Origin: Xanthomarina sp. F2636L
Lineage (GTDB): Bacteria > Bacteroidota > Bacteroidia > Flavobacteriales > Flavobacteriaceae
DNA: 64,000 bases
NCBI RefSeq assembly: GCF_026410195.1
Contig: NZ_JAPMLM010000068.1
Span: 439,001-503,000 of the forward strand
Direction: 5' to 3'
Translations under genes and position numbers: made by a program
In this document: positions 3,239 to 36,346 of the stretch, piece after piece
Layout: the number at the start of each line of letters is the position of its first letter
How positions within the stretch are numbered: position 1 is the first letter of the stretch
The notes under the pieces: generated by a model
Told to the model about the DNA's origin: nothing
What the model saw: the letters and a program-made list of their open reading frames with translations, nothing else
Database searches by the model: none

Positions 3239-3925
3239 ATGTACGCAATTGTAGAGATAGCAGGGCATCAATTCAAAGTTGAAAAAGACCAAAAAGTCTT
3301 TGTTAATCGTTTAGCAACAGAAGAAGGTAAACAAGTGTCTTTTGACAATGTACTTCTTTTAGCTGATGGAGACAAAGTTACTGTAGGCGCCCCAGCTATA
3401 AACGGAGCTCAAGTAGGAGCCAAAGTTTTAAAGCACCTTAAAGGTGATAAAGTAATCGTTTTCAAAAAGAAAAGACGTAAAGGATACCGTGTAAAAAACG
3501 GACACAGACAGTCTTTAACTGAAATCGTAATTGAAAGTATTGTTGCTTCAGGAGCTAAACCAGCTGCTAAAGCCGAAAAGAAAGCCGCTCCTGCTAAAAA
3601 AGCTGAGCCTAAAGCTACTGCTCCAAAAGCAGAAGCTAAAAAAGCTGCTCCAAAAAAATCAACTGCTAAAGCAGATGATTTAAAGAAAATTGAAGGTGCT
3701 GGACCAAAAGCTGCAGAAGCTTTGGTAAACGCAGGATACGAAACTTTCGCTAAAATAGCTAAAGCTAAACCTGAAGAATTAAGCACTGTTTTAACTGAAG
3801 CTAGCTCAAGATTAGCTCACATAGTTACAGACACTTGGCCAAAACAAGCTAAATTAGCTGCTGATGGTAAATGGGATGAACTAAAAGAATTACAAGAAAG
3901 ATTAGACGGTGGAATTGAAAAGTAA
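3239..3925 (+). CDS. rplU: 50S ribosomal protein L21 with C-terminal HhH extension
   Basis: Residues 1-103 are canonical bacterial L21 (start MYAIVEIAGHQFKV, RNA-binding end KGYRVKNGHRQSLTEI). The protein is 228 residues, about twice the usual L21 length of roughly 103. After the L21 core comes a low-complexity Ala/Lys/Pro linker (about 105-145). It is followed by a helix-hairpin-helix-like domain (DDLKKIEGAGPKAAEALV, from 146) and a helical tail ending in a Trp-containing segment. HhH units of this kind bind nucleic acids. Similar extended L21 proteins occur in Bacteroidota relatives, so this is probably lineage-wide and not a local fusion. It is co-transcribed with rpmA 42 bases downstream. 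Confidence 0.96.
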   Translation: MYAIVEIAGHQFKVEKDQKVFVNRLATEEGKQVSFDNVLLLADGDKVTVGAPAINGAQVGAKVLKHLKGDKVIVFKKKRRKGYRVKNGHRQSLTEIVIESIVASGAKPAAKAEKKAAPAKKAEPKATAPKAEAKKAAPKKSTAKADDLKKIEGAGPKAAEALVNAGYETFAKIAKAKPEELSTVLTEASSRLAHIVTDTWPKQAKLAADGKWDELKELQERLDGGIEK

Positions 3926-7944: not shown

Positions 7945-8205
7945 ATGAGAATATCAGTAGACTTAACCTTATCACCTTTACAAGACGATTATGAAATTCA
8001 TGTTATTAACTTTATTAAAAGTCTAAGAGATTCTAAATTTTCGGTTTTGGAGAACCCGTTGAGTACTCAAATTTTTGGTGAATACCATGAGTTGATGCCT
8101 TTCTTAACAACTCAAATTTACAAATCGTTTGAAGAACAAAAAATATGTGTTTTAACCATGAAGGTTGTAAAAACAGACAGAAGCGACTATGAACCAAGTT
8201 TTTAA
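7945..8205 (+). CDS. Small YkoF/MTH1187-like (thiamine/HMP-binding-like) protein
   Basis: The 86-residue cytoplasmic protein has the ferredoxin-like beta-alpha-beta pattern of the YkoF and MTH1187 families. It begins with a strand ending in a proline turn (ISVDLTLSPLQDDYE), then a helix, a strand with NPLSTQIFGEYHE, a second helix and a final strand (CVLTMKVVKTDR). YkoF-type proteins bind thiamine or its pyrimidine precursor HMP. The next gene, a PnuC-family permease, starts inside this one (17-base overlap), which suggests translational coupling and a shared job. The family call comes from pattern recall and is moderately supported. Confidence 0.6.
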   Translation: MRISVDLTLSPLQDDYEIHVINFIKSLRDSKFSVLENPLSTQIFGEYHELMPFLTTQIYKSFEEQKICVLTMKVVKTDRSDYEPSF

Positions 8206-8821
8206 TTTTTTTTTCGAACAATATGCTGGTTATCAAACCATCGATATCGGTTTAGAAATTATTGCCGTTATTTTTGGGTTTCTCTCTGTATGGTTTTCCA
8301 AACAAAACAATATTTGGGTTTTTCCTACAGGAATAATTAGTACCAGTATTTTTGTGTACCTGCTTCTAAAATGGGGATTATTAGGAGATATGATGATAAA
8401 CGCCTACTATTTTATCATGAGTATTTACGGCTGGTATGTGTGGACTAGAAAAATAGACGCTACGCATGTAACACCCATTTCATCTACAACAAAAAAAGAA
8501 AAAAGAACTAGTATTTGGATTTTCTTAATCACTTTATTATTTGTTTTTATTGTCTATAACAGCTTTAATATGTGGACAAGCTGGGTGGCTTATGTAGACA
8601 CCTTAACTACGGCTATCTTTTTTGTAGGTATGTGGCTCATGGCAAGAAAAAAAGTAGAAAACTGGATTTTTTGGATTTTAGGAGATTTAATTTCAATTCC
8701 ATTATATTTTTATAAAGGATTCACTTTTACTAGTTTACAATATTTAGGATTTACGGTTATTGCCATATATGGATATCTAGCATGGAAGAAACACTTAAAC
8801 AATATAAAAGTAGCTGCATAA
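8189..8821 (+). CDS. pnuC: PnuC-family vitamin permease
   Basis: The 210-residue protein has about seven membrane helices typical of PnuC transporters, which carry nicotinamide riboside, thiamine (PnuT) or riboflavin (PnuX) across the inner membrane by facilitated diffusion driven by intracellular phosphorylation. Visible family motifs are MSIYGWYVWTRK near residues 77-88 and the substrate-site WxxWxxxD (W159, W162, D166) followed by a YGYLAWKK end. It overlaps the upstream YkoF-like gene by 17 bases and the downstream kinase gene by 40 bases, so the three are almost certainly co-translated. The kinase partner favours nicotinamide riboside; the YkoF-like neighbour and nearby TPP riboswitch favour thiamine. 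Substrate is therefore left open. Confidence 0.85.
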   Translation: MNQVFNFFFEQYAGYQTIDIGLEIIAVIFGFLSVWFSKQNNIWVFPTGIISTSIFVYLLLKWGLLGDMMINAYYFIMSIYGWYVWTRKIDATHVTPISSTTKKEKRTSIWIFLITLLFVFIVYNSFNMWTSWVAYVDTLTTAIFFVGMWLMARKKVENWIFWILGDLISIPLYFYKGFTFTSLQYLGFTVIAIYGYLAWKKHLNNIKVAA

Positions 8822-9345
8822 AAGTAGTTTTATTTGGACCAGAATCAACTGGCAAGACTATTTTAGCAACCCAATTGGCTGCTTATTATAAAACACTTTG
8901 GGTTCCAGAATATTCTAGAATTTATGCCGAAGAAAAAGTTAAAAACAATCAGTTTCTAACTAAAGAGGATGTGTTACCCATTGCCATTGGACAAATGGCT
9001 TTAGAAAATTCTTTAGCAAAACAAGTCGATAGTTTACTAATTTGTGACACTGATTTGTTAGAAACAAAAGTATATAGCGAAGCATATTTTAATGGTTATT
9101 CTCCTCAATTATTGAACAAATATGCCATTGAAAACACCTATAATCTCTATTTTTTAACTAATATTGATATTCCATGGGAATCTGACGGAATTCGTGATAA
9201 ACCAAACGAAAGAAAAGTCATGTTCGAGGCGTTTCAAACGGCTTTAATTAAAAATAACCTGCCTTATGTGTTATTGAATGGAAGTTTGTCCAACCGAATG
9301 GAAACTGCCATAAAACATATAGATAAATTACTAAACAACAACTGA
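8782..9345 (+). CDS. NadR-like P-loop kinase (ribosylnicotinamide-kinase-like)
   Basis: The 187-residue protein has a Walker A motif GPESTGKT (19-26), an EYSRIYAEE segment, an ICDTDLLETKVYSEAYF Walker-B-like strand and a DIPWESDGIRDKPNER lid. Order and spacing match the C-terminal kinase domain of NadR, which phosphorylates nicotinamide riboside; no nucleotidyltransferase or DNA-binding domain is present. Kinases of this type trap a vitamin that enters through PnuC. The start codon lies 40 bases inside pnuC and the stop abuts the next gene. An alternative reading, a thiamine kinase, is discussed under findings. Confidence 0.82.
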   Translation: MEETLKQYKSSCIKVVLFGPESTGKTILATQLAAYYKTLWVPEYSRIYAEEKVKNNQFLTKEDVLPIAIGQMALENSLAKQVDSLLICDTDLLETKVYSEAYFNGYSPQLLNKYAIENTYNLYFLTNIDIPWESDGIRDKPNERKVMFEAFQTALIKNNLPYVLLNGSLSNRMETAIKHIDKLLNNN

Positions 9346-10896
9346 ATGTTTTCAGAAAAAGACATCATACAAATTGAAAAAAAAGGGCTAACTATTGAAA
9401 AGGTGACTGCTCAAATCGACTTGTTTAAAACGGGCTTACCTTTTGTTAACTTACAATCGGCTGCAACTATTAACAATGGGATTTTAAAACTTTCAGAAAA
9501 AGAAAAAAAAGCATCTATCCAATTGTTCGACGATAAAAGAAACAACTATTCTATTATAAAATTTGTTCCAGCTTCTGGAGCAGCAACCAGAATGTTTAAG
9601 TCTTTTTTTAGTTTTATAGAGGATTATAACCCAGAACAAGAAACAGTAAATGCTTATATAAATAGAACCAAGGAAGCTTTATTGGCAGTCTTCTTTGTAG
9701 GCTTGGAAAAACTGCCTTTTTACAAAATAGTATTAGATAAAATAGTTAATGTATTTCCAGATTATCATTCATCATCAACAGACAAACAGCGTTATATGTT
9801 TGTTAAAACTATGTTAGATGAAGACAAGTTAAATTATGGGTTCTATCCAAAAGGCTTGTTGCCATTTCATGAATATAGAGAGCATATTGCAACAGCTTTC
9901 GAAGAGCATTTGTTTGAAGCTGCTCTATATGCTTCAACAAATAATAAAGCGAATATACACTATACTATTTCAGAAAAGTATAAAGATATTTTTGATGGTG
10001 AATTTAAAAAAATCCAAACCATTGTAGAGCGTAAAACTAATACTAAATTCGAAATTTCTTTTTCATATCAAAAAGAATCTACAGACACCATTGCTGTTAC
10101 TCTAGAAAACGAACCTTTTAGAATGGACGATAACAGCCTATTGTTTAGACCTTCTGGGCATGGCGCTCTACTCTCAAATTTAAACGATTTAGATGCAGAT
10201 ATTATCTTTATTAAAAATATAGATAACGTTGTAGTTTTTAAATATGAAGATGAAGTAAGCGAATACAAAAAAATGTTGGCTGGTATTCTAATGGAGGTTC
10301 AAAATCAAGCTTTTAATTATCTTGAAAAACTAGACAACAATGATCTTTCGAGGAATGAAATATTAGAAATCTCAAAATTTTTATCACTTAAAATGCATGT
10401 GGTTATTTCTTCTGAATATGAAAAATATGCCACTGAATATCAATTAGAATATTTAAAGGAAAAGTTAAATAGACCTATTCGTGTTTGTGGTATGGTTAAA
10501 AATGAAGGAGAACCAGGAGGAGGTCCTTTTTGGGTAAAAGATGAAAAAGGCCAAGTCTCTTTACAAATTGTAGAATCAGCACAAATAAATAAAAAGGTTA
10601 AATCTCAAAAAGATATTTTAACAAATGCCACACATTTTAACCCTGTAGATTTGGTTTGTGGAATTAAAGATTATAAAGGAAACAGGTTTGATTTAGAGCA
10701 ATTTGTAGACCATAAAACAGCTTTTATAACCATGAAAACCAAAACGGGAAAAGACCTTAAAGCACTTGAATTACCAGGGCTTTGGAACGGAAGCATGTCT
10801 AATTGGAATACCATATTCGTAGAAGTTCCTCTAATTACCTTCAACCCAGTTAAAACAGTAACAGATTTATTAAAACCTACACATCAAGTAAAATAA
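9346..10896 (+). CDS. DUF4301-family protein
   Basis: The 516-residue soluble protein without signal peptide begins immediately after the kinase stop codon. It matches the Bacteroidota DUF4301 family, with visible conserved stretches FVPASGAATRMFKSF near residue 75, LLPFHEYREHIATAFEEHL in the middle and GMVKNEGEPGGGPFWVKDE near residue 380. The Gly-rich PASGAATRMFK stretch and the later GHGALLSNLNDLDADIIFIK segment recall sugar-nucleotidyltransferase-like folds (a phosphate loop and a metal-binding Asp pair), which is inference. Its biochemical role is unknown; the operon position suggests it is produced with the permease and kinase. Confidence 0.85.
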   Translation: MFSEKDIIQIEKKGLTIEKVTAQIDLFKTGLPFVNLQSAATINNGILKLSEKEKKASIQLFDDKRNNYSIIKFVPASGAATRMFKSFFSFIEDYNPEQETVNAYINRTKEALLAVFFVGLEKLPFYKIVLDKIVNVFPDYHSSSTDKQRYMFVKTMLDEDKLNYGFYPKGLLPFHEYREHIATAFEEHLFEAALYASTNNKANIHYTISEKYKDIFDGEFKKIQTIVERKTNTKFEISFSYQKESTDTIAVTLENEPFRMDDNSLLFRPSGHGALLSNLNDLDADIIFIKNIDNVVVFKYEDEVSEYKKMLAGILMEVQNQAFNYLEKLDNNDLSRNEILEISKFLSLKMHVVISSEYEKYATEYQLEYLKEKLNRPIRVCGMVKNEGEPGGGPFWVKDEKGQVSLQIVESAQINKKVKSQKDILTNATHFNPVDLVCGIKDYKGNRFDLEQFVDHKTAFITMKTKTGKDLKALELPGLWNGSMSNWNTIFVEVPLITFNPVKTVTDLLKPTHQVK

Positions 10897-10897
10897 C

Positions 10898-11305
10898 ATG
10901 TTTGATACAGCTTTGCTTATTACAGAACTAAACTTCAAAGCTATCAGGAGCTCTGGATCTGGAGGACAACACGTTAATAAGGTTTCGTCCAAAGTGGTTT
11001 TAAATTTCGATTTAAGTAATTCTCAGGTTTTTTCTGAAGAGCAAAAAGCTTTATTATTCAAAAATCTTGCAAACAGATTAACAACTGAAGGTGTTTTAAT
11101 TTTACAAAGTGACGAAAGCAGAAGTCAGCATAAAAACAAAGACCTTGTAATAAAACGCTTTTTAGAGTTAATTAAACAGAGTTTAAAAAGACCTAAAAAA
11201 CGAAAACCTACTAAAGTTCCACGATCTGTTAAATTAAAACGCTTATCTAAAAAGAAGCAACAAGCTGATAAAAAAGCCAATAGAAAACCTCCTGAAATAA
11301 ACTAA
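10898..11305 (+). CDS. arfB: Alternative ribosome-rescue factor / peptidyl-tRNA hydrolase
   Basis: The 135-residue protein has the catalytic GGQ motif (SGSGGQHVNKVSSKV, GGQ at 22-24) and a Lys/Arg-rich C-terminal tail (KKRKPTKVPRSVKLKRLSKK region). That tail lets ArfB (YaeJ) enter the empty mRNA channel of stalled ribosomes and release the nascent chain. Class I release-factor anticodon domains are absent, as expected. It starts one base after the DUF4301 stop codon and ends the operon before the TPP-riboswitch leader. Confidence 0.93.
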   Translation: MFDTALLITELNFKAIRSSGSGGQHVNKVSSKVVLNFDLSNSQVFSEEQKALLFKNLANRLTTEGVLILQSDESRSQHKNKDLVIKRFLELIKQSLKRPKKRKPTKVPRSVKLKRLSKKKQQADKKANRKPPEIN

Positions 11306-11323
11306 ATTATTTTTCATTCTTAG

Positions 11324-11353
11324 TTGTTAATTCTTAATTGATGGCTATCTTTG
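11324..11353 (+). promoter_or_regulatory. Promoter of the TPP-riboswitch transcript
   Basis: TTG at 11324-11326 and TATCTTTG at 11346-11353 are separated by 19 bases, a good Bacteroidota promoter. The riboswitch begins about 14 bases further on. Confidence 0.78.
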
Positions 11354-11366
11354 CATCGTTCTCAAA

Positions 11367-11434
11367 AAGGGGTGCCTATTATCGGCTGAGATCATACCCA
11401 ACGAACCTAGAACAGGTAATGCTGTTTAGGGATA
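11367..11434 (+). promoter_or_regulatory. TPP (THI-box) riboswitch
   Basis: All conserved TPP aptamer blocks are present in order: GGGGTGCC, GGCTGAGA, ACCC, GAACCT, ACAGGTAATGCTG and AGGGA. The expression platform is less clear. Downstream, GTGATATTATTGTTAAT can pair imperfectly with ATTAAACAATCTCAC, but no clean T-run follows, so control may be at translation. It lies 128 bases upstream of the TonB receptor, which it should switch off when thiamine diphosphate is plentiful. Confidence 0.96.
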
Positions 11435-11561
11435 TAAAACCAAAATGGTGATATTATTGTTAATAGTTTTACAACGATTAAACAATCTCACTATTTCAAA
11501 CAAATTAATTAATAACAAAGAATAATAACCTCTTTTTATTCGTATAAATTTATTTTATCGG

Positions 11562-13781
11562 ATGAAACTTTTATTCAACAATCTGTCACATTGTAGTAGG
11601 CGGAACTCTCAAATTTTTTTACTTTTTTTACTGTTTAGTTTTTCAGCTTATTCGCAAGAAAAACAGCAAGATTCTACAAAACTGGAAGCTTTAGACGAAG
11701 TTTTGGTTAAAGCTGTACGTGTAAACGCCACGTCACCAATTACACATTCTAACCTCACCAAAGAACAATTACAAAAACGGAATCTAGGTCAGGACTTACC
11801 CATTCTTTTAAATTATTTACCTTCGGTTGTAACCACTTCAGATGCTGGTGCAGGCTTAGGGTACACAGGAATTCGAGTGCGCGGAATTAATGCGCAGTCT
11901 ACCAACGTGACCATTAATGGGATTCCTTATAACGATGGAGAATCCTTAGGGACTTTTTGGGTGAATTTAGGCGATTTCGCCTCTTCCGTAGAAAGTCTTC
12001 AGTTGCAACGTGGTGTTGGAACATCAACCAATGGTTCTGGAGCTTTTGGAGCTAGTATTAATGTGCTTACAGATGCTGTTTCAGAAAAGCCTTTTGGGGA
12101 AATAGCCAATAGCTATGGAAGCTTTAATACATGGAAGCACACCGTAAAATTTAGTACAGGCTTGCTTAACGAACATCTTGAAATTGCTGGACGTTTGTCT
12201 CAAATTAAATCTGATGGTTACGTAGATAGAGCCTCTTCAAATTTAAAGTCGTACTTTCTTCAAGCCACATATATAAATGATAATACCATGATAAAAGCGC
12301 TTACTTTTAGTGGAAAGGAAAAAACCTATCAGTCATGGAATGGAATTGAAGACCCATATATTTTAGAACATGATAGAACTTTTAATTCTGCTGGAATGTA
12401 CACAGATGAGAATGGCAGTATTCAGTTTTATGATAATGAAATTGACAATTATCAGCAAGACCATTATCAGTTCCATTGGAACGAACGCATCAATAACAGA
12501 TGGTCCACCAATTTAGCTCTTAATTATACGCAGGGAAAGGGTTATTTCGAACAATTTAAAGAAGATGCAGAATTTGCAGATTATGGCTTTGACGATGTAG
12601 AAATTGGTAGTGAAACTATTACAGAAACAGACCTAATTAGACGTAGATGGTTAGATAACCAGTTTTATGTTTTTAATGCCAATGCTAATTATAAAAATAA
12701 TACTTTAGATGTTATTTTTGGGACATCTTTAAGTTCGTATTCAGGCGATCATTATGGTGAAATTATCTGGGCTCAATATTCAAGCGATATGATGATAAGA
12801 GATAGATATTACGATGGTAACGGAAAGAAATTAGACATGAGTGCGTTTGCTAAAGGACAATATAGATTAAACAATCATGTTAGTTTGTATTTGGATTTGC
12901 AATACAGATATGTTAACTATAAAACTACTGGAACCAATTCGGATGTGGCACCATTTATTGTTGATAAACATTTTAATTTCTTTAATCCAAAAGCTGGAAT
13001 TACCTATACTTTAAACGATAATAATAACTTCTATTTTTCTTATGCCAGAGCTAATAGAGAGCCAAATAGAGACGATTTTGAAATAAATGCCGATGTCAAG
13101 CCAGAGCAGTTAAACGATTTCGAATTGGGATGGAGACACCAATCTGAAGCCTTTAGTCTAAATACCAATTTATATTACATGTTATATAATGAACAATTAG
13201 TATTAACTGGAGCAATTAATGATGTTGGAAATCCGGTGAGAGACAACTCAGGAAATAGCTACAGATTAGGTTTGGAAATTGATGCTATTTTAAATATTTC
13301 GAATAAATTTAGTATTCAACCAAATGTGGCTTTAAGCACAAACAAAAACAAAGAAACAGTGGTTTCTTTAAATGGAGAATTAGTTGATTTAGGGTCGACA
13401 AATATTTCATTTTCTCCTAATGTTGTGGCAGGGAATGCTTTAGTTTACAGACCACTTAAAGGTTTGCAAATGTCCTTGTTAAGCAAATTTGTTGGAGAGC
13501 AGTATATGGGAAATACAGATACGGAAGCATCCAAATTAGATAGCTATTTTGTAAACGATTTTAATGTGATGTACGAAATTGAAACAAAATCTATCTTTAA
13601 AGCCATTGTTTTTTCAGGTTTGGTGAATAATCTTTTTGGAGAAAAATACAGCTCTAATGGTTTTTACTATACGTATGATGACGATTGGTCTAACCCATCC
13701 CAAATAACAACTATTGAAGGTAGTGGTTTTTATCCGCAAGCAACCAGAAACTTTTTGTTGGGAGTGACTTTGAAGTTTTAA
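11562..13781 (+). CDS. TonB-dependent receptor, predicted thiamine/precursor uptake
   Basis: The 739-residue outer-membrane receptor has a cleavable signal peptide (ending near SAYSQEK), a plug domain (NGIPYNDGESLGTFWVNLGD, ending in LQRGVG) and a C-terminal beta-barrel finishing in LKF. It lacks the N-terminal carboxypeptidase-regulatory domain found in the two larger receptors of this window. Its only visible control is the TPP riboswitch in its leader, so the ligand is very probably thiamine, a phosphate ester of it or a precursor such as HMP. THI-box-controlled TonB receptors are known from Bacteroidota. It is followed by a terminator, so it is monocistronic. Confidence 0.93.
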   Translation: MKLLFNNLSHCSRRNSQIFLLFLLFSFSAYSQEKQQDSTKLEALDEVLVKAVRVNATSPITHSNLTKEQLQKRNLGQDLPILLNYLPSVVTTSDAGAGLGYTGIRVRGINAQSTNVTINGIPYNDGESLGTFWVNLGDFASSVESLQLQRGVGTSTNGSGAFGASINVLTDAVSEKPFGEIANSYGSFNTWKHTVKFSTGLLNEHLEIAGRLSQIKSDGYVDRASSNLKSYFLQATYINDNTMIKALTFSGKEKTYQSWNGIEDPYILEHDRTFNSAGMYTDENGSIQFYDNEIDNYQQDHYQFHWNERINNRWSTNLALNYTQGKGYFEQFKEDAEFADYGFDDVEIGSETITETDLIRRRWLDNQFYVFNANANYKNNTLDVIFGTSLSSYSGDHYGEIIWAQYSSDMMIRDRYYDGNGKKLDMSAFAKGQYRLNNHVSLYLDLQYRYVNYKTTGTNSDVAPFIVDKHFNFFNPKAGITYTLNDNNNFYFSYARANREPNRDDFEINADVKPEQLNDFELGWRHQSEAFSLNTNLYYMLYNEQLVLTGAINDVGNPVRDNSGNSYRLGLEIDAILNISNKFSIQPNVALSTNKNKETVVSLNGELVDLGSTNISFSPNVVAGNALVYRPLKGLQMSLLSKFVGEQYMGNTDTEASKLDSYFVNDFNVMYEIETKSIFKAIVFSGLVNNLFGEKYSSNGFYYTYDDDWSNPSQITTIEGSGFYPQATRNFLLGVTLKF

Positions 13782-34826: not shown

Positions 34827-35054
34827 ATGAAAAATCTGATTTGTTCCCTCGTAGGTCATGATTTTAAAGAAACTAAAAAAGTGACCAATCATGTTAGTGA
34901 ATTTCAATGCATTCATTGTAAAAAACAAATGTCCACTAACGAGAATGGTGATTTAACCCCTTTAACTTCAAAACAAAAAGAAATTAATTCTCTTTTACAT
35001 TCTATTCATAGAAAAAAGAAAAAGAAAGCTGCTCAAGTATCTACTGATTATTAA
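34827..35054 (+). CDS. Small zinc-ribbon-like protein, copy 2
   Basis: The 75-residue protein starts MKNLICSLVGHDFKETKKV and has NHVSEFQCIHCKKQM, i.e. His plus CxxC, a more canonical metal site than in copy 1. The tail is Lys-rich (HRKKKKKAAQ). The gene lies 61 bases behind copy 1, so the pair is a tandem duplication. Its last 14 bases overlap the 3' end of convergent thiL. Confidence 0.72.
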   Translation: MKNLICSLVGHDFKETKKVTNHVSEFQCIHCKKQMSTNENGDLTPLTSKQKEINSLLHSIHRKKKKKAAQVSTDY

Positions 35055-36090
35055 ACGAAGTCCAGCCTTGTGCTTTTATTGGAATACTTGTTTCTGCTCT
35101 TGTAATTAAATGCATACCTGCAGACGCTTCCTTCATAAATCCTATGACGGTAAAATTTGGATTATCTTTAATTTTTGGAAAATCTTCTTGCGAAATAGTA
35201 AATAACAATTCGTAATCTTCTCCTCCATTTAAAGCAACTGTCGTACTATCTATATTAAATTCTTCACAAGTTGAAATAACTTGAGGGTCTAATGGAATTT
35301 TATTTTCATACAAATCGCAACCCACTTTACTTTGCTTGCACAAGTGCATGATTTCAGAAGATAGGCCATCGCTGATATCAATCATAGAAGTTGGTTTAAC
35401 ATCTAAATCCTTAAGCAGTTTTGCCACATCTTTTCTGGCTTCAGGCTTTAACTGTCTTTCAATAATATAGGTGTAAGCATCAAGTTCCGGTTGGTTATTA
35501 GGGTTTACCTTAAACACTTCCTTTTCTCGTTCTAAGACTTGCAACCCCATATATGCAGCTCCTAAGTCGCCAGTTACAACCAATAAGTCGTTTGGTTTTG
35601 CACCACTTCTGTAAACTACATTTTCAGAATCGGCCATTCCAATAGCCGTTACAGAGATTATTAATCCTGTTGTTGAAGATGTTGTATCGCCACCAACAAC
35701 ATCAACATTGTAAATTTTAGCAGCCGTTTCAATTCCAGCATAAAGTGCTTCTAATGCTTCTAATGGGAATCTATTAGATACTGCTATAGAAACTGTTACC
35801 TGTGTTGCAACAGCATTCATAGCATAGACATCAGACAAATTTACCACAACAGCTTTATAGCCCAAATGTTTTAAAGGAGCGTAACTCAAATCAAAATGCA
35901 CGCCTTCCACCAACATATCCGTAGTAACAACCACTTGTTTCTTTTTAAAATCTAAAACTGCAGCATCGTCTCCAATGCCTTTTATGGTTGATGTATGTTT
36001 TATAATAAAGTTTTTGGTTAAGTGATCTATTAGACCAAATTCACCTAAGCTTCCTAAATCTGTTTTATTCTGGTTTTTATCTTCAATCAT
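35041..36090 (-). CDS. thiL: Thiamine-monophosphate kinase
   Basis: The 349-residue enzyme phosphorylates thiamine monophosphate to thiamine diphosphate. Motifs: GIGDDAAVL near the N-terminus (ATP/Mg site), VVGGDTT in the middle and LNGGEDYELLF near the C-terminus. The start is set at MIEDKNQNK (36090); the longer frame to 36162 encodes an unlikely hydrophobic leader on an otherwise cytosolic enzyme. Its presence fits a cell that makes thiamine monophosphate by synthesis or by a kinase route. Confidence 0.95.
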   Translation of the reverse strand: MIEDKNQNKTDLGSLGEFGLIDHLTKNFIIKHTSTIKGIGDDAAVLDFKKKQVVVTTDMLVEGVHFDLSYAPLKHLGYKAVVVNLSDVYAMNAVATQVTVSIAVSNRFPLEALEALYAGIETAAKIYNVDVVGGDTTSSTTGLIISVTAIGMADSENVVYRSGAKPNDLLVVTGDLGAAYMGLQVLEREKEVFKVNPNNQPELDAYTYIIERQLKPEARKDVAKLLKDLDVKPTSMIDISDGLSSEIMHLCKQSKVGCDLYENKIPLDPQVISTCEEFNIDSTTVALNGGEDYELLFTISQEDFPKIKDNPNFTVIGFMKEASAGMHLITRAETSIPIKAQGWTSFNNQ

Positions 36091-36093
36091 AAT

Positions 36094-36101
36094 GCAAAAA
36101 T
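36094..36101 (-). promoter_or_regulatory. Possible -7 box for thiL
   Basis: On the minus strand TATTTTTG lies about 4 bases before the chosen ATG, implying a very short leader. No convincing -33 element is seen. Moderate to weak. Confidence 0.4.
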
Positions 36102-36346
36102 AAGAAGCTTCTATTGATAAGCAGATAAAAATAACTATTAAAAACAAATCAACCCGTTGCAATTAAAAAATAGATAATAAAACAAATGTTATTATCTACA
36201 TTTTTTTAAGCTGACAGCGCTTACATGTTATGGCTTACAGACCCTTTATTTATTAGCCTTTTATACTTTTATACTCGATAGTAAAAACCAATAAGACTAT
36301 TTGCTAATATAATGTTATGTTCCATGGTAAAATTAGACATATATTG

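Follow-up and report, generated by a model that had tools for sequence, protein, structure and literature searches.

ThiL phosphorylates thiamine monophosphate (TMP), and in E. coli it follows ThiK (YcfN), the kinase that converts thiamine (vitamin B1) to TMP. In Bacteroides, the OMthi-PnuT-Tnr3 system combines a thiamine pyrophosphate (TPP) riboswitch, a TonB receptor, a PnuC-family inner-membrane thiamine carrier and Tnr3, a thiamine pyrophosphokinase (TPK), and PnuT of B. thetaiotaomicron is reported to transport thiamine in E. coli (PMC5613172). A published B1 salvage scheme uses ThiK, ThiM and ThiN, and includes a variant that has only ThiL or only ThiN (PMC6593275). Here, we describe a locus in a 64,000-nucleotide stretch of the Xanthomarina sp. 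F2636L genome (Flavobacteriaceae, Bacteroidota; contig NZ_JAPMLM010000068.1, positions 439,001 to 503,000), hereafter the window, which very probably encodes a B1 salvage module made up of an outer-membrane receptor, a PnuT-like permease, a thiamine kinase producing TMP, a thiamine-binding helper and ThiL, producing TPP. The locus shares the TPP riboswitch, the TonB receptor and the PnuC-family carrier with the Bacteroides system, but has a NadR-like kinase, which would need ThiL, in place of TPK, carries an additional DUF77-type gene, and has its riboswitch before the receptor alone. The reaction proposed for this kinase is that of ThiK, thiamine to TMP with ThiL as the next step, whereas the protein itself belongs to another family.

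The Xanthomarina locus and the proposed route

Three overlapping genes on the forward strand form a trio: a small YkoF/MTH1187 (DUF77, Thiamine_BP)-like protein of 86 amino acids (positions 7945 to 8205), a candidate thiamine- or TMP-binding helper; a PnuC-family permease of 210 amino acids (8189 to 8821), a candidate PnuT-type thiamine facilitator; and a stand-alone P-loop kinase of 187 amino acids resembling the ribosylnicotinamide kinase (RNK) domain of NadR (8782 to 9345), a candidate thiamine kinase. The open reading frames overlap by 17 bp (YkoF-like and PnuC) and 40 bp (PnuC and kinase). Further along the same strand, a TPP riboswitch aptamer (11358 to 11449) lies upstream of a TonB-dependent receptor gene (11562 to 13781; Pfam Plug, 3e-11, and barrel, 2.8e-23), proposed to encode an OMthi-like outer-membrane thiamine receptor. 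ThiL, the thiamine-monophosphate kinase, is encoded on the reverse strand (35041 to 36162, taking the reading frame from its first TTG; the profile spans residues 39 to 369) and scores 323.4 bits against TIGR01379, for which the cut-off is 184.15. An earlier note, made from the DNA letters of the window, had listed these reading frames and overlaps, a TPP riboswitch ahead of a TonB receptor and a distant thiL, and every one of these elements was recovered where it had placed them.

In the proposed route, the riboswitch-controlled receptor would carry thiamine over the outer membrane and the PnuC-family protein, acting as PnuT, would pass it through the inner membrane. The NadR-like kinase would then convert thiamine to TMP, trapping it, and ThiL, according to the function of its family, would convert TMP to TPP; the YkoF/DUF77-like protein may bind thiamine or TMP and serve the kinase-ThiL steps. 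The kinase would have arisen from the RNK domain family and represent a thiamine kinase family distinct from those of E. coli ThiK and of TPK.

The genome from which the window was taken (3.37 Mb in 75 contigs, 99.99% complete) holds one TPP aptamer, one PnuC, one ThiL and one strong kinase match, together with one weak match (21 bits). When searched whole, this genome (G000) gave no match to TPK (PF04263), ThiC, ThiE or ThiK (TIGR02721), and none to a second PnuC. Since ThiL is present and neither a recognized thiamine-phosphorylating enzyme nor ThiC or ThiE was matched, the strain is predicted to be a B1 auxotroph, and without some thiamine-phosphorylating enzyme no route to TMP or TPP would be apparent in it.

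Kinase and TPK seldom occur together

Every gene was searched for in the same 149 Flavobacteriaceae genomes (148 genera), and the co-occurrence tables were compiled by hand from the search outputs. The kinase was found in 142 of these genomes, TPK in 14, ThiC in 32, PnuC in 148 and ThiL in all 149 (148 over the cut-off). Some match to ThiE was present in 62 (41 over the cut-off), those weaker than 1e-20, in 11 of the 62, being counted as no ThiE, and ThiK exceeded its cut-off in none of the 149, with weak matches in 12. TPK occurs in six of the seven genomes without the kinase versus eight of the 142 with it (Fisher p 1.5e-6). Counting a broken kinase gene as well as absent ones, seven of eight such genomes have TPK; the eighth, G018, carries ThiC together with a ThiE match, is a predicted prototroph, and is the sole family genome without PnuC. 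ThiC is missing from 117 genomes, 112 of which also lack TPK, and when set beside the published salvage scheme, the thiamine-to-TMP step looks missing in such genomes. The kinase is present in 114 of the 117 and TPK in five, none being without both, and among the 98 genomes lacking both ThiC and ThiE, the kinase alone occurs in 94, TPK alone in three and the two together in one, while no genome is without either.

The YkoF-like gene follows the same divide. It is carried by 111 of the 149 genomes, all 111 of which have the kinase, and by none of the 14 TPK genomes versus 111 of the 135 others (Fisher p 6e-10), which answers the earlier note's questions of whether this gene travels with the kinase and how it relates to TPK. 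A control comparison with ThiC (20 of 32 versus 91 of 117, p 0.11) gave no significant association. Because it is found in no TPK genome, the YkoF-like protein is provisionally assigned to the kinase-ThiL route.

Several loci appear to have lost the kinase in place. In three genomes (G126, G130 and G085; handles beginning with G denote genomes and those beginning with L denote loci), the order around PnuC and the genes for a DUF4301 protein (9346 to 10896 on the forward strand of the window) and for the ribosome-rescue hydrolase ArfB (10898 to 11305, forward strand) is kept, with aptamer and receptor beyond (about 5 kb from ArfB in G085), and the kinase is gone from between PnuC and DUF4301. 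Two weak kinase fragments (E 0.015 and 0.34) are left in G130, and no remnant at E below 1 was found in G126 or G085. The kinase gene of G132, whose product is 58% identical to that of the window, is interrupted by in-frame stops. All four genomes have an open PnuC reading frame and encode TPK elsewhere; the retention of a carrier after kinase loss in TPK genomes would be predicted if that carrier took up thiamine, but not if it took up nicotinamide riboside. Other TPK genomes show different arrangements, G014 and G376 having the Bacteroides layout (in G014, receptor, PnuC and TPK behind an aptamer), and G105 an aptamer within about 75 bases upstream of its PnuC match. In a tree of 11 of the 14 family TPK genes (one a fragment) and three from elsewhere, nine of the 11 family members form one clade, while that of G014 groups with a TPK from another family and that of G111 stands separately. 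The kinases of G032 and G073 were also considered as broken genes and rejected, the stop being the terminal one and the match running past the ordinary gene end.

Beyond the family, TPK was found in 148 of 296 genomes of the phylum. Outside the genus g111, none of the 50 genomes with a stand-alone kinase has TPK, the enzyme being present in 131 of the 279 non-g111 genomes (p 1.6e-16); this count leaves out 11 of 61 genomes, those with frames over 260 amino acids, and a kinase match had to reach about 1e-19 to be counted, a threshold not attained in 27 of 102 genomes. With the longer frames included, one of the 61 has TPK too, and its frame of 324 amino acids (G329) is probably NadR-like. In other families, the kinase adjoins PnuC in 11 of the 16 loci retrieved (L142-L149, L152, L153 and L156, with L138, L139, L141, L150 and L151 as the remainder) and, in three (L141, L142 and L146), has an aptamer with receptor no more than about 2 kb away. 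Within the family, most of the neighbourhoods retrieved closely resemble the window in gene order. A scan of named genomes for the kinase returned 27 loci, with Xanthomarina at the top (80% identity), followed mostly by other Flavobacteriaceae, such as Gaetbulibacter, Winogradskyella and Olleya, and by four Saprospiraceae records.

A NadR-like kinase with a distinguishing glutamine

The kinase contains an RNK-type P-loop domain (Pfam AAA_28, PF13521, 1.3e-36, 126.7 bits), and its 187 residues gave no Pfam match to the NMNAT domain (CTP_transf_like). Its predicted model (pLDDT 95.4) has NadR as its closest fold match, followed by thymidylate kinases, a Foldseek search returning 8x7f with E 8e-10. 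With the RNK domain of NadR, it has in common the fold and the motifs Walker A, E-x-x-R, D-T and W-x-x-D-x-x-R, and the Walker A lysine and glycines, E43, R46, D89, T90, W132, D135 and R138 are invariant in a 45-row alignment of the family. It differs from NadR in lacking the NMNAT domain, in scoring 97.8 bits against TIGR01526 (NadR), well under the cut-off of 341, in carrying glutamine for histidine at position 71, and in a distribution tied to the TPK and YkoF-like genes.

Position 71 is glutamine in 99 of 100 distinct stand-alone kinases (one a broken gene's fragment), in all 18 long fused kinase frames, 17 of them with DUF4301, and in L082, a long-frame kinase from the family. It is histidine in L151, in three NadR-type frames (L063, L140 and L232) and, as read by eye, in the three best-matching NadR proteins of the PDB, and in L153 it is alanine in one alignment and histidine in another. 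As judged from these alignments, the replacement of the NadR histidine may serve as a lead to specificity and is not proof of it.

Kinase and DUF4301 were found in one open frame in 17 genomes checked, namely G005, G148, G337 and 14 kinase-bearing g111 genomes (G111 included), and the kinase frame of G139 has the length of such a fusion. The loci concerned are L023, L031, L104, L108, L118, L120-L132 and L231. The LID proline at kinase position 141, invariant in the 45-row alignment, is alanine or glutamine in the fused kinases of L121, L128, L130 and L132, all from g111, a genus that has TPK as well, as though the constraint had been relaxed.

The carrier and the DUF77-type protein

The permease belongs to the PnuC family (Pfam PF04973, E 1.2e-53) and reaches 98 bits against TIGR01528 (cut-off 42). 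As the same model gives 109 bits to the PnuC of G014, which stands beside TPK behind a TPP aptamer, the PnuC name does not tell the substrate, and alignment residues do not sort cleanly by linked system. Its thiamine substrate, and with it the PnuT role, we infer from genomic context. A different arrangement is seen at L063 (G001) and L140 (G286), where the partner proteins carry NMNAT plus RNK domains and the PnuCs group together, apart from the window clade; the PnuC beside the NadR-type protein in G001 is a second copy, and at L063 it adjoins a TonB receptor-like gene. These two loci are probably true nicotinamide riboside systems, in which case the phylum would also contain such systems, distinct from that of the window.

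The earlier note had placed the 86-residue protein with YkoF and MTH1187, and the profile and fold searches put it in the DUF77/MTH1187/YkoF group. Taken singly, the window protein matches PF01910 at E 0.011 and 16.1 bits, under the gathering score of 24.9, whereas all 32 rows of the YkoF-like family alignment, that of the window included, match it at E <= 0.1, the best at 1.8e-8. A PDB profile search with the family returned SP2199 (1.4e-6), MJ1052 and YkoF, and the predicted model (pLDDT 92.9) matches the folds of SP2199 (E 6e-8), TM0486, MJ1052 and MTH1187 and, weakly, thiamin-bound YkoF (E 1.7e-3). The predicted fold is of the ferredoxin-like DUF77 type, and the YkoF call is weak for the single protein and firm for the family. 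The protein resembles the YkoF/MTH1187/DUF77 thiamine-binding proteins in profile and fold, and differs from them as a single short domain encoded next to PnuC and the kinase, with thiamine or TMP as its presumed ligand.

A divergent TPP riboswitch

The element ahead of the receptor is a divergent TPP aptamer. It scores 41.3 bits against RF00059, below the Rfam gathering cut-off of 54.3, aligning to model positions 1 to 105 with E 7e-7 in a 401-base search, and with E 1.4e-6 genome-wide it is the sole TPP match at E <= 0.001 in the genome. In an alignment of 21 sequences (the window and 20 relatives), the core is kept, and six of 15 predicted pairs have at least one change on both sides. A TPP aptamer match at E <= 0.001 is present in 139 of the 149 family genomes, only 48 of which reach the gathering score and 91 do not; annotation at that score will therefore overlook many TPP aptamers of the family. 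The aptamer lies at most 10 kb from the kinase in 74 of 110 family genomes, at a median distance of 2.5 kb for those 74, a count based on 150 listed aptamer matches, with 110 of the 142 kinase genomes judgeable and an aptamer on another contig taken as not near.

At four loci (L059-L062, from G125, G010, G145 and G006), a second PnuC of a different clade stands right behind a TPP aptamer, in addition to the kinase-linked PnuC.

Weighing thiamine salvage against other readings

Several observations weigh against assigning the locus to thiamine salvage. By sequence and by fold, the nearest characterized relatives of the kinase are NadR proteins, and in the kinase tree, which has long branches, the family does not separate cleanly from NadR domains. 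Nor does the PnuC tree settle which substrate is carried: carriers linked to the kinase, the TPP aptamer, TPK and NadR fall in separate groups. The riboswitch of the window precedes the receptor alone, no aptamer was found ahead of the trio in any trio neighbourhood retrieved, and in 36 of the 110 judgeable genomes the 10 kb on either side of the kinase contain no aptamer. Eight of the 142 kinase genomes in the family also have TPK (among them G132, in which the kinase is broken), and in genus g111 all 17 genomes have TPK and 14 have the kinase, each time in one frame with DUF4301, so that with g111 included TPK occurs in 14 of 64 kinase genomes versus 134 of 232 others (p 4.5e-7). The YkoF-like gene is missing from 24 of the 135 genomes without TPK, from which it follows that the route can work without it. 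ThiL is kept in G014, G105 and G126, which have TPK and lack the kinase, ThiC and ThiE, so its retention alone proves no TMP supply, and in these genomes, in which no supply of TMP is apparent, it may possibly have a second role or substrate. Finally, the Fisher p values given above treat genera as independent and thereby overstate the evidence. On a ThiL tree of 57 of the 149 genomes, weakly supported and with its bootstrap not settled (G069 and G144, with very long branches, were left out as presumed wrong frames), the presence of the kinase changes state six times, and the comparisons across well-supported branches, four for kinase versus TPK and three for TPK versus the YkoF-like gene, are not significant, though none is contrary.

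Three other explanations were considered. In the classical one, PnuC imports nicotinamide riboside, from which the kinase makes nicotinamide mononucleotide for NAD, and the riboswitch and receptor are an unrelated neighbour. The TIGR01528 score of the permease, the NadR proteins that are the best PDB relatives of the kinase and a trio that is itself not under the riboswitch speak for this explanation, which nevertheless does not account for the largely mutually exclusive distribution of the kinase and TPK, for the absence of the DUF77 thiamine-binding-type gene from all 14 TPK genomes or for the retention of PnuC in genomes that have lost the kinase. TIGR01528, moreover, also scores the TPK-linked carrier of G014, and it is the second PnuC of G001 and the PnuC of G286, from another clade, that go with NMNAT-RNK proteins of the NadR type, as a real nicotinamide riboside system would; we consider the classical explanation unlikely here. 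It is very unlikely that the kinase is a pyrophosphate-transferring enzyme that forms TPP from thiamine in a single step, ThiL being kept for some other reason. Such an enzyme would account for a kinase that takes the place of TPK and for the presence of ThiL even where TPK should make it unnecessary, but the fold belongs to the NadR/thymidylate-kinase-like group, whose members are phosphoryl transferases, and ThiL, present in all 149 genomes, is a ready second step. Salvage of another B1-related compound (hydroxymethylpyrimidine (HMP), thiazole alcohol or a degradation product) would find a precedent in B1 degradation products, which can reportedly support the growth of marine bacterioplankton. 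However, the use of HMP or thiazole needs ThiE, which was counted as absent from the window genome and from the 94 kinase-only genomes, and replacement by TPK points to thiamine itself, making this explanation extremely improbable.

Thiamine salvage through receptor, PnuT, kinase and ThiL, the model put forward in the earlier note, thus gains support from the exclusion of TPK and from the in-place loss of the kinase with PnuC kept, and it is from this replacement by TPK that we infer the thiamine specificity of the NadR-like kinase. A wider proposal has, in our estimate, about an even chance of being correct: that a new thiamine kinase family, marked by glutamine for histidine, arose from the RNK domain and works with a dedicated DUF77 thiamine/TMP-binding subunit, which would hand the vitamin from PnuT to the kinase or TMP to ThiL; that this is the standard B1 route in most Flavobacteriaceae and several other families of the phylum; and that it is dismantled upon TPK gain, the DUF77 gene going first and the kinase next. 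If the thiamine salvage reading is right, the missing thiamine-to-TMP step would gain an enzyme, many kinase/PnuC pairs named for nicotinamide riboside would be B1 systems, genome-based predictions for B1 and B3 would be corrected, and the DUF77 protein would acquire a testable role. No description of this kinase as a thiamine kinase was found in the titles and abstract beginnings of the open-licence literature searched, and the prediction may already have been made in a publication or a curated database.

Neighbouring genes

DUF4301 and ArfB, which lie between the trio and the receptor, are probably outside the pathway. The DUF4301 reading frame abuts that of the kinase in the window with zero gap; it was considered as a pathway member and set aside, because the gene is kept in loci without the kinase. 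Elsewhere in the window (3239 to 3925), an open reading frame resembling ribosomal protein L21 carries an extension of about 120 residues, which by eye is rich in lysine and alanine and then resembles a helix-hairpin-helix.

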